Of a stretch of 64,000 nucleotides of DNA, positions 1 to 29,849 are shown piece by piece. Made by a program: the position numbers and the translations under genes. This DNA is from Lineus longissimus. Lineage: Eukaryota > Nemertea > Pilidiophora > Heteronemertea > Lineidae. The notes beneath the pieces were generated by a model. That model had not been told where the DNA came from and did not search any database. It saw only the letters and a program-made list of their open reading frames with translations. Position 1 is the first letter of the stretch, and the number at the start of each line of letters is the position of its first letter. The stretch lies in assembly GCF_910592395.1 (NCBI RefSeq), contig NC_088309.1:14574599-14638598 (forward strand). The letters run 5' to 3'.

Positions 1-160
1 ATCCAAACTAAATATTATGACATGTATGAAAAGGCTCAGACTGGGTTCCCGAGACGGGGGAAACAAAGTGTGAATAATATTATACAAGTTTTATTATACG
101 AGTGGAATAAGCTGTCAGAAGAGGTAGTTATGGCGCCATCCATCATATGTTTCAAAAGCC

Positions 161-2320
161 GACTAGATAGGGACTCCCTAATCAGAGTTCCAAGTTCCAT
201 GAAGTTCCAAGTTCCAAGTTCCAAGTTCCAGGGCGGTCATCTCAGAAATGCATTCAATGCCAAAATTCATGATTTCTCGATATATTTAATGTAGGTGGCG
301 CTTTACTATGCTGATATCTCACAGTTCTTATTGTTGGGAAGTTAAAGGGACTTCCTCCGATAGGTGGCGCCTGACTACATTGACCTTGTGCTGTATCATT
401 TGAAGGGGTCTCTGACTGGGAGTTGATGTTAAAGGGAAACAATGCTGTGGACTTCTTCCGATAGGTGGCGCTTGACTACATTTACCTTCTGATAAATCAT
501 TTAAAGGGGTCTCTCACTGTGAGTTAGAGTGTAAAGCTTGAAAATATACAGTCCCTGTATAATGAACAAGCGGGGAAAAAACTCATTGATAAGATCATGC
601 CGTCATCCGGGCACTTACTCCAGCGGAGGGTCTAAATTGGCCAATTTGAACTCTGGAATTAGCCCCGGGGCATAAAATTCTATTCAATGCAATGCTGGCA
701 ACGTCCAATGTATCGGTATGTAAAATGTATCGGCTCCCACTTGCAATCCTCAACTCAAGAACATTGACAAGAGAATAAATCTTACCTTTATTTATGCCTT
801 ACAATTTAATACATCTTAGAATTATAACTATTATGTAAGATTTAATTAAACCCTTTCCATCTGTCTTTGATCAACAGGAAGTTTCAATTTTGTCACTACA
901 ACTGCTTATAAACATGCTCTTTGGTGGTAAAGAATCTGCAAATAAGCTGTCAAGATTGATTGATGAGTAAGGAAGCCTGTTCAGATGCTTGCTAAGGCTG
1001 ACCCAAATTAATTGTCTGTTTGCAGTAACCCTACCCAAGGTATTCATACAGGGTAGGTAGGTTTTTTCTTAATTTTCAGTGATTTTAGTGGTCAAAATCA
1101 TAGAAAAACTCCAAGATGCTAAAGAAAATTACTAAAATGCCAATAAAACTTTTGGGTATGCATGATTTTGGTGGGTCAGTTGGGGTGACGGCAAACAAAC
1201 AATAAATTTGGGCCAGCCTAATTTTGGGCCTGGCAGACATTGTCAGAGGAAGGATTGGGGGTCGGCAAAATGGCAAGAGAAGGAAGAGTTAAATGGAGAC
1301 TATAGGCAGCAGCTAGGTAGGCACGTTAAAGTTAGAAAAAGTTGCCAATAGGGGTCTCCCACATCTCACAGTACATCGAAACTATATTCATGATTGTATG
1401 AGGAACGGTACCTGGGCGAGCCCTCTGTTACATCATATGGAGCAAAAAAAACGGAGTTCAAAACTCGCATGACTTCAAAAAGAACTTCTTTGTGCAAACT
1501 GTGGAGAACACTGACCGTTCAGAATTTGCATCACAAACAGAACGTCCACACTTTTGTTGCAAAAAAGTGTGGGATACACGGAAAGCCCCCCCCCCCCCTC
1601 CGTTGCATGGTGTGGAGAACACTGACAAGGTTAAAAGCACAACAAAAAGAATTGCTGCCCCCATTGCACTTCCATCACATAACATAACATAACATAACAT
1701 AATTAACATAACATAATTTATTTCTCTCCAAAAAACCCTTTCGGGTATAAGAGGTTACATGATTTAACATTTACATATGGTGGACCAAGCTGATGAATTC
1801 TTTACAAAAACTATGAATATTGTCTAAGTTTACCCGGGAACATTTAGTCATAATGCGATGGAAAAATTCATGATAAAAAACCTGAGGTAATCACAAGGTA
1901 AATGTATTAAAGCGCCACCTATCGGAGGAAATCGACAGCATTGTTTCCCTCTAACATTAACTCCCAGTGACAGACCCCTTTAAATGATGCATCACAAGGT
2001 AAATGTAGTCAAGCGCCACCTATCGGAGGACGTCTACAGCAATGTTTCCCTTTAACATTAACTCCCAGTGAGATATCCCTTTAAATGATGTATCACCAGG
2101 TCAATGTAGTCAAGCGCCACCTATCAGAAGAAGTCTACAGCATTGTTTCCCTTTAACTTCCCAACAATAACAACTGACATTTCCAGAAAGTGAGACATCA
2201 GCGTATACATAACGTCTATCAAGAAATCATGAATTTTGAGATGGCCCCCCTGGAACTTGGAACTTGGAACTTGGAACTTCATGGAACTTGGAACTCTGAT
2301 TAGGGAGTCCCGACTAGATA
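161..2320. mobile_element. Non-autonomous foldback (MULE-like) DNA transposon with 9-bp target duplications
   Basis: The same 9 bases, GACTAGATA, stand at 161-169 and 2312-2320. Between them the ends are inverted repeats starting GGGACTCCCTAATCAGAG (170 onward, and in reverse complement ending at 2311). The arms continue inward for about 380 bp (about 170-545 and 1905-2311). Both arms contain runs of the heptamer GTTCCAA and about three ~100-bp units that each include GATAGGTGGCGC and GTTAAAGGGAAACAATGCTG. A 9-bp duplication with TIRs beginning GGG is typical of Mutator-like elements. The 1.36-kb centre has no recognisable transposase, so the element is non-autonomous. The class is inferred from the target-site length only. 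Confidence 0.75.
1676..1718. repeat. (AACAT)n microsatellite
   Basis: About eight pentamer units of AACAT with one interruption (ATTAACAT), inside the central part of the foldback element. Confidence 0.9.
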
Positions 2321-2439
2321 GCCACTGGGCAGCGAAGGACATATATTCGTACTGATGATGGAATGGTTGTTATTAGTTCTAGCTATTATGAAATATGGAA
2401 ACTGACTTAAATGTGTTGACGGTGTAAATATGTACATAA

Positions 2440-2572
2440 GTTTATTGGACACTTTACCCGCACTAGCATGCGTACTCAACCCAAAAAAGATATGTTTTAC
2501 TTGAGACGACTAACAGGAGGCAAAGACCCAGGAGGGCCACGAAGCCGCTATTGATGATGATGATGATGAAGT
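2440..2572 (+). mobile_element. Possible LINE 3' end with (TGA)n tail
   Basis: The stretch ends in CGAAGCCGCTATTGATGATG followed by more TGA units to about 2570. The upstream bases can be read as a short Arg/Gly-rich tail (LTGGKDPGGPRSRY, then stop). CR1/L2-type LINEs of marine invertebrates often end in such trinucleotide repeats. No reverse transcriptase is attached, so at most this is a strongly 5'-truncated copy. The assignment is weak. Confidence 0.3.
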
Positions 2573-2598
2573 GAGTGAAAAAAGGCCGGAGAACCCCG

Positions 2599-2654
2599 TG
2601 ACGTCACCCAACACTCCCCGTTGTGTTGCAACGTAGCCGAGGAGGGTGACGTCA
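2599..2654. promoter_or_regulatory. Two full CRE-type palindromes
   Basis: TGACGTCA occurs at 2599-2606 and again at 2647-2654, 48 bp apart. This is the full-length binding palindrome for CREB/ATF-type bZIP factors. A possible first exon begins about 530 bp downstream at 3186. Functional use is inference. Confidence 0.3.
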
Positions 2655-3185
2655 CAGGAAACCTAAAGAAGAAAAAACCCGCGTAAAACCCACACATCAT
2701 ATGACCATTAATATTCTCAACTTTTTGAGATTTGTTTTGTTTTACATCAAGTTTAAAACGGATAATTTGGAACCGTTGATGTGATTATGTGTTGAATATA
2801 TATTATGTTTTCATTGCTCAAGTATAGTTAGGTTATTTAATTCCTCCAAATAAGTGAGTTTTGTGTACATCTGTGACCTTTTTTTATACGGCATTGTATA
2901 CGTCTGTTTGTAAACAAACATGTTGAACAAGCAAATGTCCAAACGTGTCGGTCTTCAGGTTTGCACTGGGAATGAACTGATCACTAGTATGACCTAACTA
3001 CTACATTGTATATTCCATCAGTTATTATGGTGTAGTCGTTAAATGCGTATGTCTATTAACTAGGTGTTACATTAATTTGGAAGAGAAGCTTCAAGAAAAG
3101 AACAGCTATTGCGGGAATAACCACTCCTCAGACGGCGCTACTGTCGAATACCACGTGACTGAGATCCACCAATCAGATTTGAACA

Positions 3186-3452
3186 ATGGCGACATCAGCA
3201 CCAAGGACGCGCGGTCGAATTGTAGATTACAAGCAACTTTTAAATGGGCCTGAAATACCAATATCCTCAGTAAAGGACAGCTCAGTGTTTGTTCTCTTAT
3301 GTAAATGTAATTCCAAGTACAGGTACTCAGGGATGAGACATGATTGTGTTAGACTGCACATTTCCTCGAGGAAGTGGATGCAGCTGCCCACCACAACCCC
3401 CCCCCCCCCAACTTTGCCTCATACCCATGACACTGACCCACCATGCACATAA
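3186..3452 (+). CDS. Candidate first exon, unrecognised protein
   Basis: An ATG (context CAATGG) opens a frame beginning MATSAPRTRGRIVDYKQLLN, a basic start with a plausible N-terminal character. After about residue 45 the frame becomes low complexity (poly-C encoded prolines). If this is real, the exon probably ends earlier at an internal donor such as CAG/GTACTC near 3324. Upstream DNA is CpG-containing and has two CRE palindromes. I do not recognise the protein and found no convincing second exon. It could be chance. Confidence 0.2.
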   Translation: MATSAPRTRGRIVDYKQLLNGPEIPISSVKDSSVFVLLCKCNSKYRYSGMRHDCVRLHISSRKWMQLPTTTPPPPTLPHTHDTDPPCT

Positions 3453-3910
3453 TGATTACTTAATTTTAATGATGTATGGCTATATGGCCAAGAAGTACTG
3501 AAAGCACAATAATGAAATTTGCATATTGTTTGACACGAGTTTTGTTATGAGCTCAGGTACATATACTGAAGCAGCGGGCAGGGCCTGAGGAAACTCCACC
3601 CAAAATACATTTCTAAGGAGGCAATGACCAATTTAAGGTTATGAAAGTGACTGCAACATATATCACTAACATCATTTAATTCGAAGAAGAAGTTGGCTTC
3701 TATTCCTCCATTTCCAATAAATATGCCTGAGTAGCAATTACTTCACTCCTGGCTGAAATTCCCTCACAAAGACACCCCCATGGACACTATAATTTTTTTC
3801 CCAATCAACCTCAAATTTCTCCAGGCAGTAGTCAACAGTGTTGCCATCTATTTCTGAAGTCGGGAACTGACCGCACTAGCGCGCTTTTCGAGCTATCCAA
3901 GCTGGAATGT

Positions 3911-4732
3911 ATGGGCCGTGAAAACCGCAAAAAATATGTACATGTTTTTGTAAGCGGTCGTCGCTCGCGCAAGTGTGTCTTGCATGTTTTTGTGAAAGAG
4001 GACGTCGAAGACGTTGGGTCGCGCTCGCGCAAACTTGCCTCACATGTTTTTGTGAAAGAAGACGTCGAAGAACGCGGTCGTATAAAAAAACAGACGTTGG
4101 GTGGCGCTCGTGACGGGTCATCCTATTTAGCGTCCAGTGGCGACCAGTAGCGTCCAACGCGAAATAATAGGGTGTATATGGTTAAAAATGTTTTCAAGCT
4201 CCTTAAACAATTTCAATAAACAAGATTTAGAACTTTGGTTGAGTTTGCAAACCTAGTTTTTGAATAATCATCACCAGAAAACGATCTTAGTATGCCAACC
4301 TGATGCCAGATCCCGATTCTGCTTTTTCTATAAACCCAAGGAACGGCAGCTAAAACAAACATGGCGTCCAGTACTTTTGCTGGACGCATACTAAGATCGT
4401 GAAAGTGTTTTAGGAGCTTGAAAACATTTTTAACCATATACACCCTATTATTTCGCGTTGGACGCCACTGGTCGCCACTGGACGCTAAATAGGATGACCC
4501 GTCTCGAGCGCCACCCAACGTCTGTTTTGATATACGACCGCGTTCTTCGACGTCCTTTTTCACAAAAAAACATGTGAGGGAAGTTTGCGCGAGCGCCACC
4601 CAACGTCTGTTTTGATATACGACCGCGTTCTTCGACGTCCTCTTTCACAAAAACATGCAAGACAAGTTTGCGCGAGAGCGACGACCGCTTACAAAAACAT
4701 GTACATATTTTTTGCAGTTTTCACGGCCCATA
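3911..4732. mobile_element. Foldback element with ~350-bp imperfect arms
   Basis: The left arm starts ATGGGCCGTGAAAAC at 3911 and the right arm ends with its complement at about 4731. The arms (about 3911-4300 and 4386-4732) also share the inner block CGATCTTAGTATGC / GCATACTAAGATCG. Within each arm a ~70-bp unit containing CATGTTTTTGTGAAAGA and GACGTCGAAGA is tandemly duplicated. No transposase is present. The short loop holds AACATGGCGTCCAG. The family is unknown and target duplications are not obvious. Confidence 0.65.
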
Positions 4733-4873
4733 GGAATGCCCCAAAACACAAATTTTCTCAAATTTACACTACATAATTTTGGCTAAGCATTACAAATCTT
4801 CGACCTATTGATGGACCCATCGAATTTTCATCCAAATTTTTTGATTTTTCGTCTGCTGGTGCTTATATATATA

Positions 4874-4909
4874 CAGAGTCTTTCTATACAATTGTATAGA
4901 AAGACTCTG
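4874..4909. repeat. Perfect 36-bp palindrome
   Basis: Begins CAGAGTCTTTCTATACAA and continues as its exact reverse complement. It is flanked on both sides by TATATATA runs. A related hairpin with the same outer CAGAGTCTTTC lies at 62176-62213, which suggests a small mobile foldback sequence. Confidence 0.95.
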
Positions 4910-4961
4910 ATATATATATAGAATCGTGACAGAAGTCGGGAGCTTATGTTTTTTGCCTGCA

Positions 4962-4978
4962 CCCCCCCCCCCCCCCCC
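4962..4978. repeat. 17-nt homopolymer C tract
   Basis: Seventeen C in a row. Similar tracts recur in this window (about 1586-1598, 37195-37212, 38540-38552, 50089-50100, 63536-63548). Confidence 0.95.
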
Positions 4979-5081
4979 GAGAATATTGATTGACTGAGTT
5001 GGCCAACGCATTTTGCAGTGGTCCGTTCAGAGCTTATTTAGCGCATGCGCACTGTCGATTAGTGACTAGGCCCGCAATAGC

Positions 5082-5282
5082 TGATAATGATCGCATTGAT
5101 AATAAAGTCAAGTGCTTGTCGGCCAGTCTATTACATGTATACGATATTGTCGCAATGCGAAGGAGCAGAACATGATGGCAAAACCATTAGGCAAATTGTC
5201 GTCGCCCACGTATTGTCCATCACGATTGAAGAATATTGAGGCATCGAACAACAATCCTATGCTCATAAGTAATAAGGAAACA
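5082..5282 (+). repeat. Dispersed repeat, copy 1 (partner 16405-16640)
   Basis: This segment aligns in the same orientation with 16405-16640. Shared blocks, in order, are TTGATAATAAAGT, GAAGGAGCA.AA.ATGATG, CCATTAG.CAAATT, ATCGAACAACAAT and AGGAAACATG. No coding potential or terminal structure was recognised. It is probably an old interspersed element. Confidence 0.6.
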
Positions 5283-5444
5283 TGAGGTACGCCAAAAGCA
5301 TGATTTCTATTATTTTAGCCTGTGACGTAACCGACGGTCTGCACCTGGGGAATGTTTCTTGTATTTACCATCCAAATAATTTGATTCATGAGTCCTGAAA
5401 GATTTGATCAAGAACATACAGTAACAGTCCAAATAAAAAATTAC

Positions 5445-5560
5445 ATCCCATAAATCGCGTCAGTGGCGCGTCAATTACGCGCTACCCAGCGCGTATGTCA
5501 CGCGTAGGCCGAGCGTAATGGCGCGAAAAATGGAGATATAAGTGCGTCACTGGCGCGATG
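5445..5560 (+). repeat. CGCG-rich dispersed repeat, copy 1
   Basis: Contains GTGGCGCGTCAATTACGCGC, then TACCCAGCGCGTATGTCACG. The same series occurs inverted at 41340-41475. It has internal inverted symmetry (GCGTCA.TGGCGCG at both ends), resembling a small MITE. It abuts the first detectable exon of the transposase gene and may mark where that gene was truncated. Confidence 0.6.
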
Positions 5561-6303
5561 CAGGACGGATGTAAATTGTGATTTGGACTGAAGGTTGAAT
5601 TGCTTTTGGGAGGTGATGCAAGATGCGATTCGATGGGGCATTGTGCAAAATTTGGATCTTATTCCTTGTTGGAATTGGGGAAAAACAAAGTAATAGCGAC
5701 GGAGATGGTACAGGTATTAAAGTGCAGATATTGACCACAAAAGTATTGAAATTGCATTGGTCAACTCTTAAGAATATACTTAAAACTGATCAATAGTTCC
5801 TAACCTTGGCCGTTTTTCTTTGATTGACTCTTCTTGTTGGAGATGCACATTGGTAAAATACAGTTCTCTATGCTCCTTTTCAGAGTAACGAGGTCAAGAA
5901 CAGCTATAATATGGAATTGAGAGGCTTACAGGAGTGTAAGAAGACTGTGGAAAGTTTCAAGATACGAGCTTTGGTAACAGACCGCCATCCTCAAGTCGCC
6001 AAATGGGTGAGAGAAAAATGGAAGATCACCCATTTCTACGACTGCTGGCATATTGTAAAAGGTATCTATATAATAATACTGGAAGGGGGACGAATAAACT
6101 CACACTTAGAGGCGTTGGATTGCCTTGAAATTTTGCATGAATTGTGGTGACACCTTACCCTGATGCAACGTCTTGGTTTTGTTCAAAAATATACTTCAGC
6201 GGAGCAGTAATGAGGGATTTTTAATCGGACACTGTCAATTCTCCTTACCACTTACAGAAGCCAAGCCATTGCTGTTAAATTATGCAGGGGCTTAATCAAT
6301 TAT

Positions 6304-6479
6304 CTGCACTCCCTCTGGGGTGAATAACATTACCTTTTGAACAGCTGGCTGTAGGGGGATGATTGGAACAGCCGGTATACCTGCTGACCTGCTGCACTCC
6401 CTCTGGGGTGAATAACATTACATTTTGAACAGCTGGCTGTAGGGGGATGATTGGAACAGCCGGTATACCTGCTGACCTG
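6304..6479. repeat. 88-bp unit repeated twice in tandem
   Basis: Two nearly identical copies (6304-6391 and 6392-6479) beginning CTGCACTCCCTCTGGGGTGA, with one clear difference (ACC versus ACA before TTTTGAACAG). They lie in the intron between the second and third transposase exons. Confidence 0.95.
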
Positions 6480-7555
6480 CTGAACCCAGGTTAATGTTAT
6501 TTTCGGTCCACGATTTCGCGGGAAATGAAATTGTAAACAAACGCATGTGTGCAGTTCAAATGTAAACAAAAATGTATTTTTGGTACTTTGGTTGCTGGAC
6601 TTGGGTTTTCCCGCAGTTAGGAGCTGGGGTCAAATTGATGGTCTATTGTTTATGGGTGCTGTTTTAGTTAGAGCTAGCCCTTGATTATGAAGGAATTTTC
6701 AAATGAAGGTGACCATGGTCTGTTTATGTGCTCACCACAGCTTTCAATACTTGATGTATCTGAAGAGGCACTCTGAACTTGGCATGGCCTTATCAAGGAG
6801 CTGCTCACGATGCTGAACTTCTAGCTTGCCTTTCGACTAAGTGCCCTGCCCGAGACATTTGGAAGCCGACATGTGAAGGCCTATCTGAGTTCTCCTTCTT
6901 CTCCGTATAAAAAGGGGCATATTGCTGACTGAGGTACGAGGCATATTGACATTGCCTCATCATCTCCATCGGACCAATTGATACACTTTTTATGCACACA
7001 TACAGCACGCCACAGCTAGGTCCGTGTCTGTGGACAAATGGTTGGTTTAATTTGCCTCTTCAATATTGCTCCTTTGATATTGCATTAGATTTTCATTGCA
7101 ATTCAATCTAATCAAGATATAGCCCATTTGAACCTGCCTGCGCCACGGGTATAATGCTAGTGTCTTATATTCTCTTGTGGCTGCAAATATATATTAATTT
7201 GTTTTTGTTGGTAACGAATGATATCCTTGATAGAGGACTTAAAAACCATCCCATTTTCTTCCCAGGTATTTGCAAAAAGATTGACAAGCTTACCAAGAAA
7301 AAGGGATTTGAGATCGTTAAAGGCCATATATCAAGGTTTGAAAACATGCTTGATACTCATGAAATATGTTGAGGGTTAAAAAAACAAGATCCCAGACATT
7401 AAAAAAATTCTAATAATAAAGTCATTATTTAGTTATTTCAATTTTCAATTTGAAACTATTTGAATTTCCCTCCACACACAACTTTAGATTAGTTCCACAT
7501 GTGGCCGCTAGGGATTTTTTGATGACGTAGATCAGGTCAGTCAGAACAAAGCAAG

Positions 7556-7927
7556 ATGGCTTCCGCATACAGTTCAGAGAGTGAGAGCAGTGAATTTGAG
7601 GATGTTTTGGTCGATACAGAAGGATATTTAAACGTTGAGCCATACATGTTCGAGCCATTGATATCATTAGATCATAATGAGAGTGATCATTCGGACGAAA
7701 GTGATTAGAATTTGTGGTTAATCAATTTGCATGGCAGACCTGCCGATATAGCAAAGAAGACATTGATAGACGGTTGCAGATGCATAACATGTATGATTTT
7801 TGAACAGACTAATGTTGCACAATATTGTTTCGCCTCGTCAGTGTTGTATCGCCAGTTATGTAATGACGCTGAACTACTATTGAAAAGTGACGGTATTATG
7901 CACAATCATCTTGACGTGACGATATAA
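7556..7927 (+). pseudogene. N-terminal part of a P2X7-ballast-type protein, broken by an in-frame stop
   Basis: ATG at 7556 opens a 50-residue acidic stretch beginning MASAYSSESESSEFEDVLVD and containing VEPYMFEPL. It stops at TAG 7706-7708. The same frame then continues to 7927 and contains CRCITCMIFEQTNVAQYCF. The minus-strand gene at 10883-12127 has the same order: acidic start, EEPYLYEPE, then CKCGNC and YCC. The matching order suggests both halves were one reading frame, or one exon boundary, now interrupted. The zinc-binding Cys cluster is degraded relative to the paralogue, and the C-terminal ballast core (HxAYR, LPSC, GFK) is missing because the element is internally deleted. Confidence 0.6.
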
Positions 7928-8102
7928 TGCCGTGCAACGTTAGATAGGCCAAGATGTCAGATGACAATAATCTGTCATTGACAGTGGCTGTCACTGACAC
8001 TGACCTGTGTCGCTGTCACCTTGCTATGGCTGGAACACAAGAAGACACTATGCGGTATCACAGGCCCTAATAGGGCTTACACATTATGTATAACAACCGA
8101 CC

Positions 8103-8408
8103 TCAGCAGCCTCGGGCATTAAATGCAATTGACATGGTTGGAACAGCTGTTTTTAACAAGTGGCATTTAATATTCAGTTGGATGCAGATATCCGGCTTCA
8201 TGTGATAATCCGTATCGATAAAGTGATCACTGCAAAGTTTGGCCGAAGGCCCAGGCTTCCAACACTCCAAACGTTTGCACTTCCGAATCCACAGCTTCCT
8301 CCTCTCTCGTTCAACTGGCTTTGGAAATTCATGAAAATGGGTCCCATCCGTCATTCGATTGTTCTTTGTGCTAGCCTTGACACAATTCGGAGCCACACAA
8401 TACACCAT
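8103..8408 (-). CDS. THAP domain exon of a transposase
   Basis: The 101-residue frame starts MVYCVAPNCVKASTKNN and shows the C2CH zinc signature: Cys4 and Cys9, then CSDHF (C-x2-H), with the invariant Trp in RKLWIRKC, the Pro in HEFPKP and the box TAVPTM. These are the diagnostic residues of THAP DNA-binding domains, which bind transposon ends in P-element and Kolobok-type transposases. The exon lies about 300 bp from the right TIR of the nested 1.39-kb element and points inward. No catalytic exons follow within the element, so it cannot encode an active transposase. At most a free THAP protein could be made, and that could repress relatives (inference). Confidence 0.85.
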   Translation of the reverse strand: MVYCVAPNCVKASTKNNRMTDGTHFHEFPKPVERERRKLWIRKCKRLECWKPGPSAKLCSDHFIDTDYHMKPDICIQLNIKCHLLKTAVPTMSIAFNARGC

Positions 8409-8921
8409 AGTGAATGAAACACATTACTTCCAGGTGTGCATAATTAATTAAGGCCCTCCTGCTTTTATGATTGCATGACATGTACAGATGACCTGATCTA
8501 CATCACAACTTTTGCTGCACCCGCCGCCTGGCTCTAACAAGCCAGTTGCTAGCCTGATCAGGTAATCAAGTTGTCAAACACATAATTGGCTATATCTTCA
8601 AAATGGATGGAGCTAATTGCATTTGGTTTTCTGTATTGTATAAAGTGTTAGGTACACTTTTGAAATCGTCTTACAGCAGAAAATGGCAAACAACCTTGAT
8701 ATATGACCTTTAAAGAGTGGAAAAGATGTATAAAACATCACCTCTACTGGTGTGCCGTGTCTTCTCCTTCTGACGATGGTGAAATGATTCTTAAGAAGTG
8801 GCTGTCCTGTCCGGAGCACATTCAAGGCATCCATAAGAACTGCCAACACAAAAAGAGGATTACAAAGAAGAGATGGCTTAAGAAAGGTAACTTATAATGA
8901 AAAAACCTTGCTCAATAACTT

Positions 8922-9195
8922 CATTCTTTGTCTCATCTCATCTACAGTGATGTTACATAAAAACACGATTCTCACACTTCAAAAATTATCTGTTTTACAG
9001 GGTCTGCCGCTGCTGTCGAACAAGAGCAGCTGCTGACGAAACCTTATCTCTTGAGAGACATTCTTTGTCTCATCTCATCTACAGTGATGTTACATAAAAA
9101 CACGATTCTCACACTTCAAAAATTATCTGTTTTACAGGGTCTGCCGCTGCTGTCGAACATGAGCAGCTGCTGACGAAACCTTATCTCTTGAGAGA
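8922..9195 (+). repeat. 137-bp tandem duplication of an intron-exon boundary
   Basis: Units 8922-9058 and 9059-9195 are nearly identical; the visible difference is GAACAAGAG versus GAACATGAG. Each contains the 3' end of the intron, an acceptor ending TTTTACAG and the first ~58 bases of the exon. The first copy lacks a donor, so splicing to it would read into the repeated intron. The second acceptor (exon from 9138) gives the full open exon. Confidence 0.95.
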
Positions 9196-9860
9196 CATAA
9201 AGAAGATGTCAAGCTTGGGTCAGACCAGCAGCGTTGAAACCTTTCACAGCATTGTGAATCAGTTTGCCCCAAACATGTATGCCTTCTCCTACGAGACCAT
9301 GATCACAAGGTATGGAAATAACACACAATGAGCCATATTGCTATGCCTTAGTGAAATGATTCAGTATTTCTTCGATTGTTTGACAAATATAGTATATAGC
9401 TCTTTCATTTCAGAAACTATTTGGCTGCAATGCACTACAATGAGAATGCTGGTCGTGAGCAGGCAATGTCACCTGGTGGTTCTGGGCAATACAGCATAGC
9501 CTTCCCAAAATACAAAGAGGGACATCACACACTGAAGAAGGTCTTGGTGAAATCAACTTTTGGTAAGGATCATGATACAAGTCAAACTCCAGAAAATTAT
9601 ATATCATCAAAATTATCTCGGTCTAAACAAATAGAAAAAACACCTTTAACTTGTTATAATTTATTTTTACATACCTTTCAGAATATGTTCGGGAGTGCTT
9701 GGAGGAGACAGTCAATCTCCAGAACCCAAAATACAGGAAAGCTCAGCTGCAACTGTTCCCAGATCCAGTGGCACCACCACCATTGTGTGATGCCTTTGAA
9801 AGGCCTGACAAAGACATTGCAGTTGCTGCTCAAAGGTCAAGATTTCGAAAAATTTAATTA

Positions 9861-10886
9861 TTAACCCTTTCGGACCCAACACCTAACCCACCCATCTACC
9901 CAGGCCCAAAATGGGGATTTTTAGAGCTTTTTTCTGCTGGCCTGGTGTGTTGAAAATAAGAGAGATAGAGGAAAATGACTGCTTGGGTTGGATAGACAAC
10001 AAAATGGAGAATATTTTGGTAGGGAAAAAAAAATCTTTTAATGCTAATGAGGTCATGTGACCTCATTAGCATATTCTCAAAACTGTCCGCAAATGATTTT
10101 TTTTACTTTGAAAATTCTTGGCTCTCTTAGTTTCAAGAACCACGAACAAAAACTGCATGGAATATGTAGGGGGGTGGGGCATCTTCATTTTCACACATTT
10201 TTTTTCAATTATCTTCGAAATTATGATTTTGGGGACATTTTCCTCATTTTGGGGCGAAAACGCCAAAATCTGACGAAAACGACATAATTTCATATTTCAG
10301 CCAAAATAAATGGTAAAAACCACTTCTTCTGTTATTATATCTTTATTATAACTATTAGAACTTTGAAACTGTGATAAACAAATTGTTTTTACCTGATATT
10401 TAGGTGAAAAAATACAAGATCACCCTGTTTTTGAATTTTTCACACCCGCAACTGCGACATGTAAGATTGTATGATTCATGGTCCGAGTGGTCGAACTCCC
10501 AGTCCGAATCAATGTTTTCCCCATCTGACAGCTCCATATCTTCACCCCCAGGTCTAAATCGGACTCGCTATCATCAATGAGCGCCGCAAGAACATCTTCG
10601 GTAGACAAATGTACTTTCCGTTTTGCCGCCATATCGCGCTGCTGCTCTACAATGCATGGAGTACAAATGTCTACTACGGCCGTATATATCGGTGGGGAAT
10701 CCCCGAAACCAGCGAGACTGGTTTCATTGATTGTAGACATTGGTTTGATAGGCAGTTCGAAGATGGCAGCACCGTAATTTGCTTGTTATCAACGATCTTC
10801 TGCATCAACCGCCCCACGGTTGCTCGGGTAATTGCGGTGGGGTCAAGATCAACCGTGTCACGGTTGCTCAGGTCCGAAAGGGTTAA
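9861..10886. mobile_element. piggyBac-like element, internally deleted
   Basis: TTAA flanks both sides (9861-9864 and 10883-10886). The TIRs are CCCTTTCGGACC from 9865 and its complement ending at 10882, which fits the piggyBac superfamily (CCY ends, TTAA target). The 1018-bp body retains only an N-terminal fragment of a transposase on the minus strand. It is inserted exactly between the stop codons of the two convergent genes of the surrounding transposon. Confidence 0.8.
10420..10632 (-). pseudogene. N-terminal fragment of a piggyBac-type transposase
   Basis: The ATG at 10632 starts MAAKRKVHLSTEDVLAALID followed by DSESDLDLG. This is the usual acidic 'LT-EEVL--L--SDSD' start of piggyBac transposases. 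Past Gly of DLDLG, the acidic composition continues in a neighbouring frame (ELSDGENIDSDWEFDHSD), so a frameshift is likely near 10555. The catalytic domain is absent. Confidence 0.6.
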
Positions 10887-12127
10887 ACAAGAGCTGGCAA
10901 AATATTGTCATCGCTTTCTTTGAATCCCTTGAAGTCCTCATCTTCAGATGGGGTAGGAAAGTGTGCTCCAATCACGGAAACGGCACATGATGGCAGAACC
11001 ACACGGTTTTTCTCCCCCAACCAACCACAACACCATCGTACGAATTGCCTGTAGGCTATATGTCTGTATTTCTGTTCTTGTGGTCCTTCAAAGGCCCTCC
11101 CTTTATATTGTTGTTTATAGCCAAGCCAAGCACATTGCAGACTCCAGGGGTCAAGACATACTGAATGAAATCCTGGATGGCTAGTTATACATGTCGGTAG
11201 TTGTTGCGTGACGTGCTGTGCATCATGAAGCTTATCAACAACTCTAGGTTTCTCTTTGCAGCAGTAGCCCTCCATTTCCTTGGGCAAAATCTGACAATTT
11301 CCACACTTGCACCTGTAAATATAGTAATTGGAGAGCGCCTTAGTAAGCCTGCATTTGAGATTTTCTTTTGAAAACATTTCGACATCTTTGGAAATTTGAT
11401 ATTGTAATTTTGACAGACCTGCGTGTATTTGTAAAATCTTAAATAAAAGGAAAATGATCTTGTCACATTCCCTATTTGTTAGCTCTTTTCATTTCTGTAT
11501 CATTGTATGGCCACCCAATATTCATACATGTATGCACTACACCATCATCAGCCCGTTCATAGGCCCACTAAATAGCCTGCAGTCACTGAAACATGCACTT
11601 TAAATGTTTATAAGAAAAAAGAAACTCACAGTCATGACCTGGTAAATGAGTTCATGACCCAAAAATATGGTGTATAATCAAGCTGTCTGGCTTCTAACAT
11701 TCTGTCTCGGAGTTTGTACTGTTGCATTATAGCTTCAGAGTGGAGAAATGTTTGGTGTCATTGGAATACAATATTAGTGCATTCATGGCATCTGGACCAT
11801 TCAAAAGGACTGGATTACTTTAAAAGGGATATAATTTCATACTTACCATTTAGAAATTGTCAGTGGAGTGCAGAATCTTCGCCAATCTTCTGGATTGTCC
11901 TCACTGTCTTTGTCACTTCCACTCCCATCATCTTCGTCATCATCTACCTCGGGTTCGTAGAGATATGGCTCTTCAAGATCTAAAATAACTCCTTCTACTC
12001 CTTCCTCAAGATCTGCAATGCCTTCATCTTCGATAAGTAGACAGGCACTAAAATCCTCTTCATTTTGAGATTCATCTTCTGATGAAGATTTATAGAGATT
12101 GTCATCCCTTTTAAACGAGATATCCAT
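10883..12127 (-). CDS. Free-standing P2X7 ballast-domain (P2RX7_C-type) protein, two exons, apparently intact
   Basis: Exon 1 is 12127-11847, with donor ATG/GTAAGT. Exon 2 is 11312-10883, with acceptor TATTTACAG. Together they are 711 nt: 236 residues plus stop, with a Trp codon split across the junction. The N-terminus is very acidic (MDISFKRDDN...) and contains LEEPYLYEPEVDDDED. The C-terminal half matches the cytosolic ballast domain of the vertebrate P2X7 receptor: a Cys cluster CKCGNC with YCC, then CITSHPGFHSVCL, KYRHIAYRQFVRW, VVLPSCAV and FKGFK. In P2X7 this domain binds zinc and guanine nucleotide. Here it has no channel segment and no membrane helix. The stop lies within the TTAA of the adjoining piggyBac insertion. 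Its convergent pairing with a transposase and its presence in the nested relative suggest it is the transposon's second gene; its role there is unknown. Confidence 0.85.
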
Positions 12128-12368
12128 GGTATATTGTATTATGCAGTGTATGTGACTGTAGCCACGTGGCTTTGTTTTCTAATGGTGTGCTGTAGCAGTG
12201 CTCATTAGCATATGGATTAATACTGCATTGGATCAATTAGTGATTTAGGCCTTCTTGTTTGAGGTAAGTGATTTTTTCTTCCTGCAGTGTCATTTTGTAT
12301 ATACACGCAGGAAAAGTGTTTTTGGTGATTTTGGTGATTTCAGCAAAGATTTGCAATTAGCCCTTTAA

Positions 12369-13016
12369 GAAAAAAATAGAATAAGTATTTTTACCCGTCA
12401 TCTTTATGAGCTAGAGGGTTGACTGCGTAAAACAAATACTCTAGACTCACAGATCTAAGACCGGTTCATCGATTTGGAACATTACTTCCCTCAGTATTAT
12501 ATGCATTGAACAGGCCAATGTCCCATCATGATTAGCTCAAACTTGTTGGTCTTTTCAGGCTGTATATTTTAGATTGACAATGGTTGTAATTCGGAATGAA
12601 CTGATCACTTTTGACCTACATACCAACCACTTTACTTATTTCTTGATCTTTGATTGATCGATCAATTTCTATGTAATACTAATAGTACTAGATCTAAAGG
12701 TTAATTTGATTTAATTTATAAGATTCATTGAACACCATATTACAAGAAGACATAAGATAAACAACCGAATAATGAACATAAAAATAAAAACAAACAAAGG
12801 AACGCAATGATGGAACTCCATGGGGATGTCCAGAGGGGTCATAGACCCATAATAGGGATCCCCTTGAAATTATACATATAAAATTAGATAATCAACAATG
12901 AAACCCTAGAGGATAGGAAAGAAGTTGAAGAAGCAAGTAAGTCGCAGCACTATCGTTGCCCCAGACAAAGATGCACTGCCGTGACTAGAATTTCTCCTTT
13001 AAACCCTTTCAACGTG
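12369..13016. other. Spacer without recognised feature
   Basis: AT-rich, with stops in all frames and no coding, RNA or repeat signature that I can support. Confidence 0.6.
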
Positions 13017-13913
13017 ATTAGTGAGGTTGAGATCCACGACTTATAGCAAGAACCGATACTTATACTTATATTTTTTGCCAAATACGTCATCAAATATGGG
13101 AGGAGTTTTCCCCTCCGATACGTTCCAGCAAGAGTTGAATTTTCGCTCCATTAAAATGCCCTGGCGTTGCTCATATGGCTATTATGTAACAAATCCGACA
13201 ACCCAGCAGTAACTGATAAGGTTGGATCATTATCTGACATAGAATTAGAAAAATGAGAAAGCGATTTATACGCATCTAAAAGCCTATTTTGTTGGACATC
13301 TTTTGTGCTCTATAAGTCGCCTTCAGAAACGTGGCCCCCAGTTAAATACAAAACGAATGACATAGCCTATCTATTGTAGTTCATGGCCCTCGTATTGATC
13401 CGCGCCGAGTCTATTACGTAATCATCTTTCCATACGCGAGAACATATGAAAACAACGCATCCGAATTTCAAGGTAAGTGGAGCTTTACTGCTATCAAAAA
13501 CTCGATTTTGCTATAGTTTATGCACCCTGATTTGAAACATTTTTACTAGATCGTGAGGGTATCTATATCACACTACTTGAAGGTTCTGTCCTTCCACCGA
13601 CAACACGATTTCTAGTTAAAAAGTTAGTTAGAATCACAGTATACACTAAAAATTCAGCTTTTTGCTATAAGGCCAGGCGCATGCATAGGACTTATACCAT
13701 GTGTGTGATCGACGGTGTTGCGTGTCTCGAGGCTTATGGGCCGATTGAAGGGGAGGGCGATCTTTGCTTTTTACCAGGAATTCACTAGGCGGGCAAGCCC
13801 CCCCCCCTCCCTCAATCTTTTAAGATCTTGAATCCACCACTTGGACAGACCATTAAATTTGTCCGCAATGAGTCTATGACGTGAAATTTCACTTTTTTTT
13901 CTTCATTTTTCAG

Positions 13914-14529
13914 CATGGACAATACAAACCAGGTAGCACAACAGGCCACCAGAAAAAAAGGGTCAACTTCTCAGATGAAGACGATACCCTCCTGCTTAGA
14001 GAAGTAAATGCTCAAAATCCGTACAAACAAGGAAACAGTTGGGCCCAGATCGCAGATGCTTTGAATAAGGCTGATTCTTCCAAGTTGGAAGTTGATTCAA
14101 GACGCGTGCGGAAGAGGACCAAGTTGCTGCTGGATAAATTTGAAGAGGATGAAAAAAAAGACATGAAGGCGTGAGTATGAAAGTTTATGATTTATGATTT
14201 ATGGTTTATGGTTTATGATCTCTCCTCCTGTACAATGTATATTTTTGTACCTGGTTCATTGAAATATAAACCTAGCTTATTTTTTTGCAGATGGAGGTGA
14301 CGATGAAACTAAGCCTGCACCGAAACGCCAGAAGACCACCTCAGGCCAGGTACTCGAGTTCATGGCGGAGAAAGCAAGTCGTGAGCACGAATTAAAGGAA
14401 GGAGAGCTTAAATTGAAGAAGCAGCAACTTAAGCTTGAAGAGGAAAGGTTCAAATTGGATCGGGAAGAACGACAGAAACGTATGGAAAGGGAGGACCAGG
14501 AGTCGAGAAGCTACTTTGGTTCAAAATGA
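13914..14529 (+). pseudogene. Harbinger Myb/SANT-like accessory protein
   Basis: The first exon follows TTTTTCAG at 13913 and contains KKRVNFSDEDDTLLLREV, SWAQIADALN and VDSRRVRKRTKLLLDKFEED, a Myb/SANT-like trihelix fold of the type Harbinger elements use for DNA binding and nuclear import. The second exon starts after TTTTGCAG near 14290. It encodes a Lys/Glu-rich coiled coil (ELKLKKQQLKLEEERFKLD...) and ends YFGSK at TGA 14527-14529. The frames of the two exons do not join at the obvious donor (GC/GTGAGT near 14172), and the ATG at the exon start is out of frame with the Myb part across a run of seven A. At least one small indel is therefore likely. Confidence 0.65.
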
Positions 14530-15031
14530 TGAAGAAGTTTGTACTGGACAAATAAACTGAATACACCATGTGGTGAAGTATTTTAGATGGAGAACAATCC
14601 AACCCAAGCTCGGCCTTATGCTCGAGGATGACCATCATTTTTATTTCAAAACCTGGCCCAAATGAGACCTTTCCTTTTCGTGTGTTAAAATCTGTGGTTT
14701 TATTTCCCGTTTAGTCACAAATAGCCATCTCCGGTGATTGACGGACAAAACAAACAATCGTGTAAGAAATCATTTATTTATTCTGTTATTTTTGTTCCTC
14801 TCAAAAACACCTTCTCTTACAAACGTATTTTACGTAAGATTGTTTTTTACTTGTTCTTACAAATCCGGACATATTTTTAGTTTTAAAGCGAAATCGTTTT
14901 GTACCGGTAACGTTATTTATCTGTTTTTGTTGACCAAATAAAGCATTTTGTTACATTAGTTTGTCCTTCACAAGTTTTGTTGTGTTTGTGTCTGAAAAAG
15001 GATGTCCACCACACATCTTTATCACTATTGC

Positions 15032-16065
15032 CTAATGGCGTCCAAGATAGTCTTCTAATGCGGGAGGATCGAGGCCAAAGTATATACCTGTTTGGCTTCC
15101 ATACAGGCATGTGTGACAGTTGGTTAAAATTAGAGCCACTATATAATACTTTGCTACAGGCTGGAGGTACAGGTTCTTGTCAAAGTCCACGAAAGCAAAG
15201 TTGGAAATTACTTTCCCGAATGTCCATTCAACACTGGCGCGGACCTTGGACATTCTCCGATTGAAGGTGGATTCAGGCTCCTGAAGTTGGGCCCCAGCAA
15301 ATGGCCTCATCAAGAAGGGACGCATGGGATACGCTGGATCCCCGTATATCTTGTACCCTGGATGGCGTCTATCCAACTCCTGTAGCTGTTCTAGGAGGCC
15401 ACTCATACGCAACATTGCTGCATCATGGCGGCGTCCCTCGACGGGGCCATAGAGATTGGCAATCATTCCGTTTGGGGTGCTCACCGACTGGAACTTGATG
15501 CAATGTTGTCGTTTGTGGCCACTGTACACGATCCTTTGATTCCTGGTGGGTCGCGCTATTGGTCGGGCAGTCCCATCCACGAAGCCCCAACACTGTTGAA
15601 GCGGTGCATCCCTCGCTTGGACAGCATCACCGAATTGACGTAGGTGGTCCTCCGACTACCAGGGTTGGTCGAGGTCACGTAACAGGTGGCTGTGCTCATC
15701 GTACAGGATGTCCAATGTCTCATTCACAATGTACGAAACCTCACTTGTAGTCCTCCAGTGGTCGATCGCTATATCAACTAGACGATTCGGATAGGACAGC
15801 CTCCGCAGAAGCAGTTGTAGTCCTTCCATATACCATCGGCTACAGTGCCGTTGCGGCACTTGACGGTCGCTGGCATTCTCAGACTGGTGGCCAGCCGTTC
15901 CATGTCGTCCCTTTCGAAACGGAACAGACACTTATACTGTTCGTTCGTTAGCTCACTCAAAGTCACACCCGTTCTCGTTGGTTTCTCTGCCTTAGCCAAA
16001 AACATTAGAGCAAAATCATCCTCTTCGGACATAGCCAAACTCATCACATCAAGTGGAACAGCCAT
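15032..16065 (-). pseudogene. PIF/Harbinger transposase, frameshifted and with a stop
   Basis: The frame starts MAVPLDVMSLAMSEEDDFAL (an in-frame upstream ATG at 16140 is also possible). The N-terminal part reaches RMPATVKCRNGTVADG, then shifts frame near 15835. The continuing frame has LQLLLRRLSYPNRLVDIAID, hits TAG near 15658 directly after DLDQPW, then stays open to 15032. Catalytic motifs in order are FVDGTARP (Asp), YGDPAYP (Asp) and ASVEWTFGK (Glu), as in DDE_Tnp_4. One frameshift and one nonsense codon make it inactive. It converges with the Myb/SANT gene, the normal Harbinger arrangement. Confidence 0.85.
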
Positions 16066-16404
16066 TTTGCCAAATAATATTGCTCGTTTGTAAAGCGAGC
16101 TCCGATTGGCCACGGAGCACTTGGCACCTCCAATTCGCATTCATGTTACAATATTTATACGTATACGTCGTCACTTAAGTTGATGTTTTCTCAACTCATT
16201 TTTCTATACGTTGTGGCGTATACGGATGTGTATCAGTATAAGTATAAGTTTTGCTATAAGTTTGTGGATCTCAACCTCTCTATTAACCCCAACATTGGAC
16301 TTATAAAACATAACAGTAACATAGAGATTTAAAATCGACAGTTAGCACATCTGCAACGCCCAACCCAAGTGCACGCTTTGTCAAGTTAGCAATCTTCACG
16401 AAAA

Positions 16405-26295: not shown

Positions 26296-26480
26296 TTTGG
26301 CGACGATTCGGGTAAAAATCACCCACTATTAAACGGAACTAACGGCCTGCCAAAATTATCTCAAGAAGAGTATGAACTGTTTGTCAACAGGCATATTGGT
26401 AACTGCAGTGACCAAACGGTAACTTTGAAGCATAAATCGGTTGTCAAAGTGAAGACTGTCTGAACTCTAAAAAAAACAAA

Positions 26481-27359
26481 ATGGCGGAAGCCGCACTGAA
26501 TATACCGGCGATCGACACGTTCGACAACTTCCTTGGCAAAGGAAGGGCGTCAGCGGGCCCTAAATGGGACAAGTGGCTCCTCAGGTTCGAAAATTACCTG
26601 TTAGCATTAAACATAACGGACGATGGCCGTAAACGGACACTGCTACTGCACTTAGTAGGTCCAACCACGTTCAAGGAATTTCAGACGCTTCCAAATACAG
26701 GCACTAACTATGCTACAGCTAGAACCAAGCTCACCAACCACTTTAAACCTAAAGTGAACACAGAGTATGAACGTATACAATTTCGCATACAGCGGCAGGG
26801 TGAGAAAGAGTCGATTGATTCGTACTACACTCGTTTGAGGCAATGTGCAAGCACGTGTGAATTTACGAACATTGACGCTGAAATCAAGACGCAGATCATA
26901 CAAACTATGACCGATTCAAAGGCCCGGAAGAATGCTTTGTCAGGCAATCTTAATTTGGAGACAATCCTAAAACAGGCACGTAACAATGAACTCAGTAGGG
27001 CTCAGAACAAGACCATTGAAAAACAGTGTGTGAGTCTAGGTACAGGTGACAAACAGATCAATAAACTGCAGTACAGGTCCAAGCCGAAGTACAAATCTTT
27101 TCGCAAATCTAAATCTAACGATCAGGAGAAACAGTGCTATAACTGTGGAGGCACGTGGCCTCACCCTAAAGGGGAACAATGTCCTGCACATGGTGTTAAA
27201 TGCAAAGCATGTGGTCGTGAGAATCATTTCACGAAGTTTTGCAAGTCTAAGCAAACTCCAACTCAGAATCGTGGACGCGGACGTCAACGCGGCGGCTGGA
27301 CTGGAGGCCGTGGAACCTCGGAATCTCATCTAGGAGACGCGGCACGGGACGGAACGTGA
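26481..27359 (+). CDS. Gag polyprotein of the gypsy element
   Basis: An open frame of 292 codons begins MAEAALNIPAIDTFDNFLGK. The central part is the usual retrotransposon capsid-like region (WDKWLLRFENYL, FKPKVNTEYERIQF, ESIDSYYTRLRQ). The C-terminus carries nucleocapsid-type zinc knuckles: CYNCGG...H...C and a canonical CKACGRENHFTKFC (C-x2-C-x4-H-x4-C), followed by a basic Gly/Arg tail (NRGRGRQRGGW). Gag is intact. The protease frame overlaps its end in the -1 frame, as expected if Gag-Pol is made by -1 frameshifting. Confidence 0.9.
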   Translation: MAEAALNIPAIDTFDNFLGKGRASAGPKWDKWLLRFENYLLALNITDDGRKRTLLLHLVGPTTFKEFQTLPNTGTNYATARTKLTNHFKPKVNTEYERIQFRIQRQGEKESIDSYYTRLRQCASTCEFTNIDAEIKTQIIQTMTDSKARKNALSGNLNLETILKQARNNELSRAQNKTIEKQCVSLGTGDKQINKLQYRSKPKYKSFRKSKSNDQEKQCYNCGGTWPHPKGEQCPAHGVKCKACGRENHFTKFCKSKQTPTQNRGRGRQRGGWTGGRGTSESHLGDAARDGT

Positions 27360-28390
27360 ACGAACTTGATTACGATGATGCAGAACAGGATGTGCGTTCG
27401 CTATGCGACAACTTCGAGGATGAATAAGATGACGATGAAAACTACTTGTTTGCTATCAATAACAATTCTAACTCTAGAGTCAAACCACCAAAATTCATGA
27501 TAAGAGTTGGCAGCACTCCAATTCAAATGATTGCTGATAGCGCAGCTACTTGCACAGTAGTAGACGAACTTACCTACAAAACGAAGCTGTCACGATTTGA
27601 GCTGAACAAAGCCAGTGGTGGTATCAATCCTTACAACAGTGAAACCATAAAGCCTATTGGCAAATTCAAATGCAATCTGTCTTTTAGAAATAGGTTGGTG
27701 GCTGATAAGGTCTTTGTTTTGCCAGGTGGTTCGGGATGTCTTTTGAGCATCAGGGCAAGTCAAGCTCTTGGTTTGTTGAAAATTGCCAAGCACCAAATAA
27801 CAAAATTTTCTCAAGTTGAACATGCTAGTGCATCACAGAGTCTTGTTGATAAAATAGTCGGGCAGCATCCTGGTTTAATTGATGGAATTGGCAAACAGTG
27901 TGGGAAACAGTACAAGCTACATGTAGATGAGTCTGTGAAACCTGTAGTTCAAAAAGTGAGGAGAATTCCTTTTCATACCAGAAAGAAGATTGAGAAGGAA
28001 CTTGACAGGCTTTTAGAAGCTGATGTCATTGAACGGGCAAATGACCCCACCACATGGGTGTCCCCTGTTGTGGTCGTCCCTAAGAAAGACACAGAGGATG
28101 TTCGTGTTTGTATCGACATGAAAGTGGCTAATCAAGCAATCATAAGGGAGCGCCACCCATCTCCCACTGTTGATGACATAGTTGACCATCTACACGGCTG
28201 CACTTTTTTCAGCAAAATTGATTTGCGCCAAGGTTATCTACAGTTAGAACTCGACCCTGAGTCTCGTGATCTCAATAGTTTTGTCACTCACAAAGGTTTG
28301 TTTCGCTCAAAGCGCCTCAGTTTTGGCATTTCAAGTGCGAGCGAGGTTTTTCAACGAGCTATTGAGGGTACAATCAGAGATGTTAAACAG
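27360..28390 (+). pseudogene. Pol, first part: protease and N-terminal reverse transcriptase
   Basis: In the -1 frame relative to gag. A TAA at 27426-27428 interrupts the linker. After it the frame is open: the aspartic protease has the active-site triplet in IADSAATCTVVDE, then the RT fingers and palm follow (EADVIERANDPTTWVSPVVV, then VCIDMKVANQAI, then FFSKIDLRQGYLQLEL with the first catalytic Asp, then FGISSASEVFQ). The frame ends abruptly at the left end of the nested 4.1-kb transposon. Confidence 0.9.
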
Positions 28391-29035
28391 GTAGCGCTGG
28401 TATAAAAGGAGGAGGCGGGCACCAGACTTGCAAATGGCTGAGTGGCAAATTTGAATTCAGAGCTCCTGCTCATTTTCACACATTCTTTCAATTTTCGAAG
28501 GTTTAGCAGTAAATTGTGATTTAGAAATGCTTTGATGATGATTATGAATATCATAGAAATCAAAAATGCCTAGTATGATTATTTCAAATGGTAGTTGTCT
28601 AGGAGTAATTTGTGTGAAAAGGGTGTCCAAACTGGCCCAACTGTGGATTCTAGTACATCTTTGCAGTGCATAAGTAATGCAAAAATGCATGAATTATACA
28701 AATGCATGAGTAATACACTGTTAGTAAACAAAGTGATGCATGCCCACATGTTTGTTGCTTCTCAGATCCTGAAATAAAGTCATGCTGCATGCTTTTTAAT
28801 TCAGAGGGCCTACCTCTCAATAGTCCTCCCATGAAGATCACAATCCATAATATTAAATGTTTGTATAAATCCATGAAATATCATCCAAATATTAATTCCA
28901 ATAAACTAATAATCCATGATAATAAGCTAAGGTCCAAGTTGTCACTTCTACTTGGGAATCAGTACGCAGAAATAACTTCAAAATTGTCAGTTTGGAGTAA
29001 AAAAACTAATCCAAGATGTAAATCTATAAGTTAAT

Positions 29036-29722
29036 TTAATTCCACGTATGCCCCATGTAAGGCTGTCCACGTGGGTTAGGGTAAAGGCCTCTGACAAGGA
29101 TGAGGATACAGTCTGGAATGACCTCCCTGTCAGTTCTTTTCCGTGAGCTCCAAACGATGTCATCTTGATTTCTTTCTTGCAATAACCTATGTTTTTTTTG
29201 AATATATCTATAGTCATCCCATGCCCCTCTATCTTTCATCATCTTCCAGTATCTTTTGTAAAGGTCTTTTCGAACTGTGTTATTTCCTTTTCTAGGAGGT
29301 TGTCCTGCACCAAGCCACTTTGGTCTCTTCGTTGTCACACAGGGTTGACAAAAACATTGCTGGCATTCCTCCCTCTGTGGATCCCGAGGTACTACATGTA
29401 GAATCCGTTGCCTTTCCTCCTCAACAGGCACAGCAGGAACTGGGTTAACATTAACCCCTCCATCCCCTATACTCTCTGCCACTTCATCAGAATGTGCAGG
29501 TACCGGCATCAAATTATCCTCATCAGGTCTCACAGGTTCAGCAGCAAGCACCCTTTCAACATTTTCCACTTCACTCTGTGATGCTATTGAATCACATTGT
29601 ACCCCAACATCACAATGTAGAACATCCAGCTCCTCAATGTCCAAATTGTTCCAACTAATAACACTTCTTATAAACTCTTTTTGTTCTGCTGTAACAAGCA
29701 GCTGAAAAATCTCCTTTTCCAT
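29036..29722 (-). CDS. Companion ORF of the 4.1-kb transposon, function unknown
   Basis: 228 residues starting MEKEIFQLLVTAEQKEFIRS. The first half is acidic and Pro/Val rich. The second half has a Cys pattern C-x2-CFCQPC (EECQQCFCQPCVTTKRP), then KDLYKRYWKMMKDRGAWDD and a C-terminal LVRGLYPNPRGQPYMGHTWN. The Cys-rich plus 'LYPNP-GQPYMGH-W' pattern recalls uncharacterised proteins in invertebrate genomes, often near such transposases; this is from memory, not a search. It lies downstream of and in the same direction as the transposase, 270 bp away, so it may be a second product or the far C-terminal exon. The frame is intact. Confidence 0.6.
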   Translation of the reverse strand: MEKEIFQLLVTAEQKEFIRSVISWNNLDIEELDVLHCDVGVQCDSIASQSEVENVERVLAAEPVRPDEDNLMPVPAHSDEVAESIGDGGVNVNPVPAVPVEEERQRILHVVPRDPQREECQQCFCQPCVTTKRPKWLGAGQPPRKGNNTVRKDLYKRYWKMMKDRGAWDDYRYIQKKHRLLQERNQDDIVWSSRKRTDREVIPDCILILVRGLYPNPRGQPYMGHTWN

Positions 29723-29849
29723 AGCACAAATTTTCTGAAACTAACACGGTTTAAAGTCACCTCATGATGTCAGAGTAGGACTTTCCAACATGAGGGGTGA
29801 TAGGTTGGCTTGTCATCTAGGATGATGGTAGCCCTACCTGACCATAGAA

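Follow-up and report, generated by a model that had tools for sequence, protein, structure and literature searches.

The window analysed here is a 64,000-nucleotide stretch of the Lineus longissimus genome (NCBI RefSeq assembly GCF_910592395.1, contig NC_088309.1, positions 14,574,599 to 14,638,598 of the forward strand). Its positions 5594-12368 carry two convergent genes, one for a short protein with a ballast domain of the kind found at the C-terminus of the P2X7 channel and one for a DDE transposase, with further elements inserted in and between them. The ballast gene is called KolX below, after the protein that Kol0, a lineage of Kolobok DNA transposons, encodes beside its transposase, and it lies in two predicted exons:

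11847-12127, minus strand: KolX exon 1, an acidic and serine-rich N-terminus with PYLYEP, its last residue being W, before the first zinc-type cysteine
10883-11312, minus strand: KolX exon 2, the entire ballast domain (CxCxxC, CC, C, RHIAYRQFVRW, LPSC), recognised by Pfam P2RX7_C, P2X7 sequences in the PDB and fold

Joined from 12127-11847 to 11312-10883, the exons give an open reading frame (ORF) of 236 amino acids; the splicing is a prediction from sequence, with GT and AG flanking the junction. The initial annotation had described a free-standing, two-exon ballast gene of this length, and both the gene structure and the profile check proposed for it are borne out: the spliced product matches Pfam P2RX7_C at 56.6 bits against a curated cut-off of 23.5 (E = 4.3e-15), the sole Pfam family above cut-off, and the P2X channel domain is not matched. 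A search for KolX proteins matched 11 among 207 candidates, of which two gene models fused to other parts (P0010 and P0011) were excluded from alignments A1 and A2. With a profile hidden Markov model (HMM) of nine relatives from other genomes, the window protein being excluded, the two KolX exons took the top two places among the 2123 ORFs of the window, exon 2 first and exon 1 second (E = 1.5e-63 and 1.6e-4), and 200 shuffled versions of the ballast ORF all scored lower than the real one. All seven conserved ballast cysteines are kept (C95, C97, C100, C111, C112, C135 and C203), and a PYxYEP-type N-terminal motif is present in 8/10 rows of A1, that is, in every row covering that region (P0006 and P0008 are without the N-terminus). 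By homology and predicted fold, the window KolX is a free-standing P2X7-type ballast domain with its zinc-type cysteines retained, and zinc binding itself is putative. Among viral contigs, 50 pattern matches to KolX were found and none was confirmed as a relative. As a separate observation, P0010 from Dermacentor silvarum is a predicted protein annotated with both DDE_Tnp_4 and P2RX7_C, which may be a gene-model fusion.

The transposase gene consists of seven open coding pieces on the plus strand within 5594-9857, together with a short duplication:

5594-5713, plus strand: piece A, with the first catalytic-Asp motif GDARCDSMGH; 5' side absent
5884-6061, plus strand: exon B, with TDRHPQ (second Asp) and DCWH
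7266-7320, plus strand: left half of an exon, reaching the TTAA that holds a nested element
8714-8886, plus strand: right half of that exon, with the H2CH zinc-finger motif HIQGIHKNCQH
8922-9195: 137-base-pair (bp) tandem duplication spanning the start of exon E
9138-9309, plus strand: exon E, with SVETFH, the catalytic Glu region
9414-9562, plus strand: exon F
9682-9857, plus strand: exon G and stop codon

Joined, these pieces amount to 342 codons without an internal stop, and the order GDARCD, TDRHPQ, DCWH, H2CH, SVETFH aligns with that of relatives, with the Kolobok DDD/E core and its C/DxxH present. HIQGIHKNCQH stands between DCWH and SVETFH, and an H2CH motif between DxxH and E belongs to the Kolobok definition in the relevant passages of two sources (PMC9587614, PMC6004289). 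The transposase search gave 190 matches among 1338 candidates at E<=1e-3, of which 120 are listed; the closest among the matches listed is from Lineus longissimus itself (56 % identity), and THAP is annotated in some of them, e.g., P0014 and P0017. The convergence of the ballast gene with a DxxH DDE transposase, claimed in the initial annotation, is confirmed by the DCWH motif and by stop codons that lie 3 bp apart once a piggyBac-type insert is removed. The ballast gene is intact, as had been described, and it is the only one of the two genes that is; the transposase is without the part before its first catalytic-Asp motif: five N-terminal query pieces, taken from five relatives, found no match below E = 0.9 in positions 1-5590, and C-terminal pieces from those relatives do recover the window exons.

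The ends of the host element and the elements nested in it are as follows:

5425-5590: short inverted-repeat element, at the point where the left side of the host element ends
7317-8713: nested Kolobok-type deletion derivative, with TTAA on both sides and terminal inverted repeats (TIRs) at 7321-7338 and 8692-8709, 17/18 identical, 5'-AG
7556-7708, plus strand: ORF resembling KolX exon 1, with EPYMFEP and interrupted by a stop, at the nested element's left end
8103-8408, minus strand: exon encoding a THAP domain, at the nested element's right end (51.5 bits to Pfam THAP; cut-off 23.9)
9861-10886: second nested TTAA element, with piggyBac-type ends 5'-CCCTTTCGGACC, between the stop codons of KolX and the transposase
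12349-12368, minus strand: proposed right end of the host element, 5'-AGGGCTAATTGCAAAT after TTAA (12365-12368)

Position 5594, taken earlier as a terminus of the element, is instead a truncation point, because the frame homology of the transposase halts where the inverted-repeat element 5425-5590 starts; the proposed border is simply where that element ends, and the right end has no matching TIR on the left. Read inward from the TTAA at 12365-12368, the proposed right end is AGGGCTAATTGC, with 5'-AGGG. A comparison of 3500-6200 with 11400-14500, covering all TTAA pairs and inverted 10-mer matches, returned nothing convincing as a left TIR, and the 16-mer of the right end has one further match, with three mismatches, which is at chance level (27/100 shuffles yield two or more). 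The stop codon of KolX falls within the TTAA of the piggyBac-type insert. This insert also holds an ORF at 10420-10785 on the minus strand, beginning MAAKRKVHLSTEDVLAALIDD, with no Pfam match.

The nested element 7317-8713, a Kolobok-type element inside a Kolobok, has kept what the host copy has lost. Both of its termini read AGG[C/T]CATATATCAAGGTT, and this pattern with at most three mismatches gave two matches in none of 100 shuffles. With TTAA on both sides and AGGC/AGGT termini, the element shows the Kolobok TTAA and 5'-RR...YY-3' ends; it is inserted inside a transposase exon, whose flanks, joined over one TTAA, restore the frame. An HMM of the KolX N-terminus, made from seven relatives with the window sequence excluded, placed ORF 7556-7708 first among the 2123 window ORFs (E = 3.2e-4), ahead of host exon 1 (5.1e-4) and of the third hit (3.1). 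Its score was reached by 0/2000 shuffles, and hhalign aligned it to KolX over 55 columns (P = 1.3e-5, probability 81 %); it counts as a remnant because a stop ends it. The THAP exon at the other end resembles ten of the 131 transposase-search proteins compared (E<1e-3). The distances from ATG to the element end are 235 bp for the nested KolX-like ORF, 237 bp for the host KolX and 301 bp for the THAP exon. On this evidence, the nested element looks like a copy of a second KolX Kolobok that has lost internal sequence and kept its two ends, and in the layout we read from it, KolX and the THAP-transposase start at opposite ends, both apparently reading inward. The earlier expectation of both genes between matching TIRs is thus not seen in the host copy, for which no left TIR was found, and the nested derivative lends it support from a related family that the host copy could not give.

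Kolobok transposases carry an N-terminal THAP domain; this half is absent from the host copy and THAP is present in the nested element. A different affiliation, with some other TTAA or Mutator-like superfamily in which a ballast gene was acquired independently, is in our estimate highly improbable. The best Pfam label of the transposase is indeed 'Mutator-like', and a few piggyBac families are described as encoding a protein that is KolX-like at its C-terminus without most of the cysteines (PMC9587614, in part), but the H2CH after DxxH, the TTAA followed by 5'-AG, and the THAP domains of relatives and of the nested copy all fit Kolobok, and piggyBac ends, as the same part of that source gives them, differ from 5'-RR. 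Equally, the open KolX frame beside a truncated transposase might suggest a domesticated host gene that neighbours the transposase by accident or as a relic, and nanor is regarded as a domesticated KolX in the corresponding passage of Kojima and Bao (2022; PMC9587614). The openness of KolX is nothing special, however, because the remaining transposase pieces (342 codons) are just as open. We set domestication aside as very unlikely in view of these open pieces, the stop codons 3 bp apart, a substitution at the R578-equivalent seen in this copy only, and the TTAA/AGGG end 237 bp from KolX.

Ballast homology, the predicted fold, the kept cysteines, the convergent layout and the association with this kind of transposase are the observations on which we read the locus, with high confidence, as a degenerate copy of a KolX-bearing Kolobok of the Kol0 kind, its two genes directed inward from two ends. 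Kol0 elements encode a transposase and, as their standard second protein, KolX, which has the P2X7 ballast fold and seven cysteines, according to the relevant parts of Kojima and Bao (2022; PMC9587614); in other Kolobok lineages the second protein is described there as nucleases or a helicase. Like the window element, Kol0 (Kolobok-1_XT type) combines a DxxH DDE transposase with a separate seven-cysteine protein of the ballast fold, and its TTAA and 5'-RR ends have counterparts here in the nested copy and at the proposed right end of the host copy; unlike the published elements, the window copy is truncated and nested. The XKol transposases of Xenopus share the architecture of DDE, H2CH and THAP, and the portion of the 2018 survey that describes them makes no mention of KolX (PMC6004289). 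The initial reading of the ballast domain as a DNA transposon's second gene is therefore supported and agrees with the published account, whereas 'cargo' is the wrong word for a standard protein of the lineage.

A link between KolX and this kind of transposase is also seen in other genomes. KolX was found in eight named species, five of which recur among the 120 listed transposase matches (Corythoichthys, Ptychodera, Knipowitschia, Tubulanus and Dermacentor variabilis). The Corythoichthys genes have neighbouring locus numbers, and in the Ptychodera pair and one Tubulanus pair both genes are on contigs of equal length. In a tree of 27 rows, which holds 25 of the 120 listed matches, picked for named animals, and no named Kolobok family, the window transposase falls in a seven-row clade (86/100) with 4/5 of the labelled transposases from KolX genomes. 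Across six pairs, pairwise KolX identities correlate with those of the transposase (r = 0.87, reached by 5/720 permutations); the pairs include one selected Tubulanus KolX, P0004, whose contig is as long as that of the transposase (P0005 dropped), and the different-contig pairs of Knipowitschia and Dermacentor, and the correlation is raised by the outlying Dermacentor row. Pipefish and acorn worm form the closest pair for both proteins (KolX 63 %, transposase 75 %; P0001/P0002 and P0014/P0015). That the pipefish copies are nearer to acorn worm than to goby is a separate observation, for which horizontal transfer or paralogy are possible explanations.

Several points weigh against the assignment to a KolX-bearing Kolobok. 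The left end and THAP part of the host copy are absent and its only proposed terminus has no matching partner, so that its TIRs and target duplication are putative. The Pfam match of the transposase to Mutator (21.8 bits) is below the cut-off of 26.5, and named Kolobok references were absent from the transposase comparison. The listed KolX and transposase of Knipowitschia and of Dermacentor variabilis are on separate contigs, and the second Tubulanus KolX (P0005) sits on a contig from which no transposase is listed. In the tree, the clade support of 86/100 is below the tool's star, all 500 label shuffles gave a value as low, and a second, unlabelled Ptychodera transposase (P0083) lies outside the clade of the window transposase.

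The function of KolX can be approached through the ligand contacts of its vertebrate counterpart. The ballast of P2X7 binds guanine nucleotide, and in the rat protein five residues (R546, H547, R574, R578 and K583) contact guanosine diphosphate (GDP), as given in the pertinent passages of Rump et al. (2020; PMC7016195). The window KolX keeps two of the five, the R546- and H547-equivalents, and differs at three (R574 to V, R578 to G, K583 to T). Among the relatives in A1, the first position is R in 9/9 and the second H in 8/9; the R574-equivalent is V in all nine, as in the window copy, K583 is matched by K in one of the nine, and the R578-equivalent is Arg in all nine and Gly in the window copy alone, which is a hint that this KolX is drifting as well. 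Among the five named invertebrate relatives of A1, the H547-equivalent is His in four (Ptychodera, two Tubulanus, Apostichopus) and Tyr in Dermacentor; one passage of Rump et al. (2020; PMC7016195) states that H547 is absent from invertebrates and another concedes sea urchin and acorn worm. Conceivably, KolX is a regulator of the element rather than a helper, such as a repressor or a sensor of nucleotide or zinc. Nucleotide binding by P2X7 and the conserved R-H pair speak for this, but valine at the R574-equivalent throughout, the scarcity of lysine at the K583-equivalent and the glycine of the window copy speak against it, and we consider a regulator unlikely; the nucleotide sensing suggested in the initial annotation is weakened accordingly.

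We prefer an accessory factor that binds protein to an enzyme or nucleotide sensor because no catalytic motif is recognised in KolX and this copy has lost three of the five GDP contacts. That it is a non-catalytic accessory factor of transposition is a plausible suggestion from sequence, which we hold with a little less than even confidence. In the degenerate Kol0-kind Kolobok that we envisage, the THAP DNA-binding domain would be expected at the lost left end, the DDE core being retained; the transposase, judging from its family, would cut at the TIRs and insert at TTAA. KolX, with a disordered-looking acidic N-terminus and a seven-cysteine ballast domain, would act as a zinc-stabilised, non-catalytic factor contacting the transposase or the end complex, the PYxYEP-type motif being a candidate contact. 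The window copy is unable to move by itself, because half of its transposase and one end are missing.

The origin of P2X7 has been proposed as a fusion of a P2X4-like gene with KolX (Kojima and Bao, 2022; PMC9587614, in the passage concerned). The mobile-element origin of the P2X7 tail put forward for this locus agrees with that proposal and is not new. The locus is a fresh example of the KolX-Kolobok association rather than a discovery, because both KolX in Kol0 and the fusion were published in 2022; it adds an independent animal example of the pair and supports the published transposon origin of the tail. What is new here looks to be the nested KolX Kolobok derivative at 7317-8713, which has both ends and KolX-like and THAP ORFs and provides an end-to-end layout, with KolX ~235 bp from one TIR and the THAP-transposase ~300 bp from the other, reading inward. 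The window KolX and the C-terminal ballast of rat, human and mouse P2X7 (PDB 6u9v, 9e3m, 9e3q) have the fold, the zinc-type cysteines and the R-H pair in common; unlike P2X7, the window protein is free-standing, without a channel, and R574, R578 and K583 are not kept. Nanor and ZCD proteins, as they appear in part of Rump et al. (2020; PMC7016195), resemble it in being short, with a variable N-terminus and a C-terminal ballast. That paper presents the ballast domain across animals as genes, and the word transposon occurs nowhere in its text; it reports that ballast genes across animals share an 'ancestral synteny' with two markers and that a tick has a THAP+ballast ORF; both may reflect the transposon's own genes travelling along.

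A third candidate lies on the minus strand at 29036-31708, flanked by 26436-28405 and 32473-36177, which are the two parts of one Gypsy-like pol gene. Its 571-codon ORF (29993-31708) matches Pfam Mutator at 48.6 bits, above the cut-off of 26.5, and is 19.7-24 % identical to Kolobok-like transposases in long alignments. The ORF downstream of it (29036-29740) ranks fourth of 2123 with the KolX HMM (E = 0.037; 1/2000 shuffles as high), and hhalign gives it a probability of 61 % over 51 columns. It is cysteine-poor, its motifs CFCQPC, REVIPDC and PYMGHTW weakly resemble the KolX C-terminus, and its AlphaFold model from the single sequence has a pLDDT (predicted local distance difference test) of 35. 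It has no Pfam match, none of 135 candidates is a homologue at E<=0.01, its one pattern match in viral contigs was not confirmed, and no TTAA pair with matching termini was found for the element inside the pol gene. A Kolobok-like transposase paired with a weakly KolX-like ORF is not established here. We offer only as a tentative idea that ballast-type proteins serve several Kolobok-like and other transposon lineages as a general accessory module, kept and reshaped by them; if so, the window would hold three ballast-type cases (the complete KolX, the nested exon 1 and the ORF at 29.0-31.7 kb), and the tail of P2X7 would count among the module's descendants.

Elsewhere in the window, a DDE_Tnp_4 transposase ORF (15032-15655, minus strand, 103 bits) and an ORF with a Myb-like match below threshold (13872-14174, plus strand) make up a pair at 13872-16140 which we take to be a Harbinger-like element. 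Positions 55199-56923 on the minus strand encode Ski_Sno_DHD and c-SKI_SMAD_bind domains and correspond to a host SKI/SKOR-like gene, which marks the window as animal DNA, and a reverse transcriptase ORF at 59357-60790 on the minus strand (RVT_1, 85 bits) has the appearance of a retrotransposon of the non-long-terminal-repeat type.

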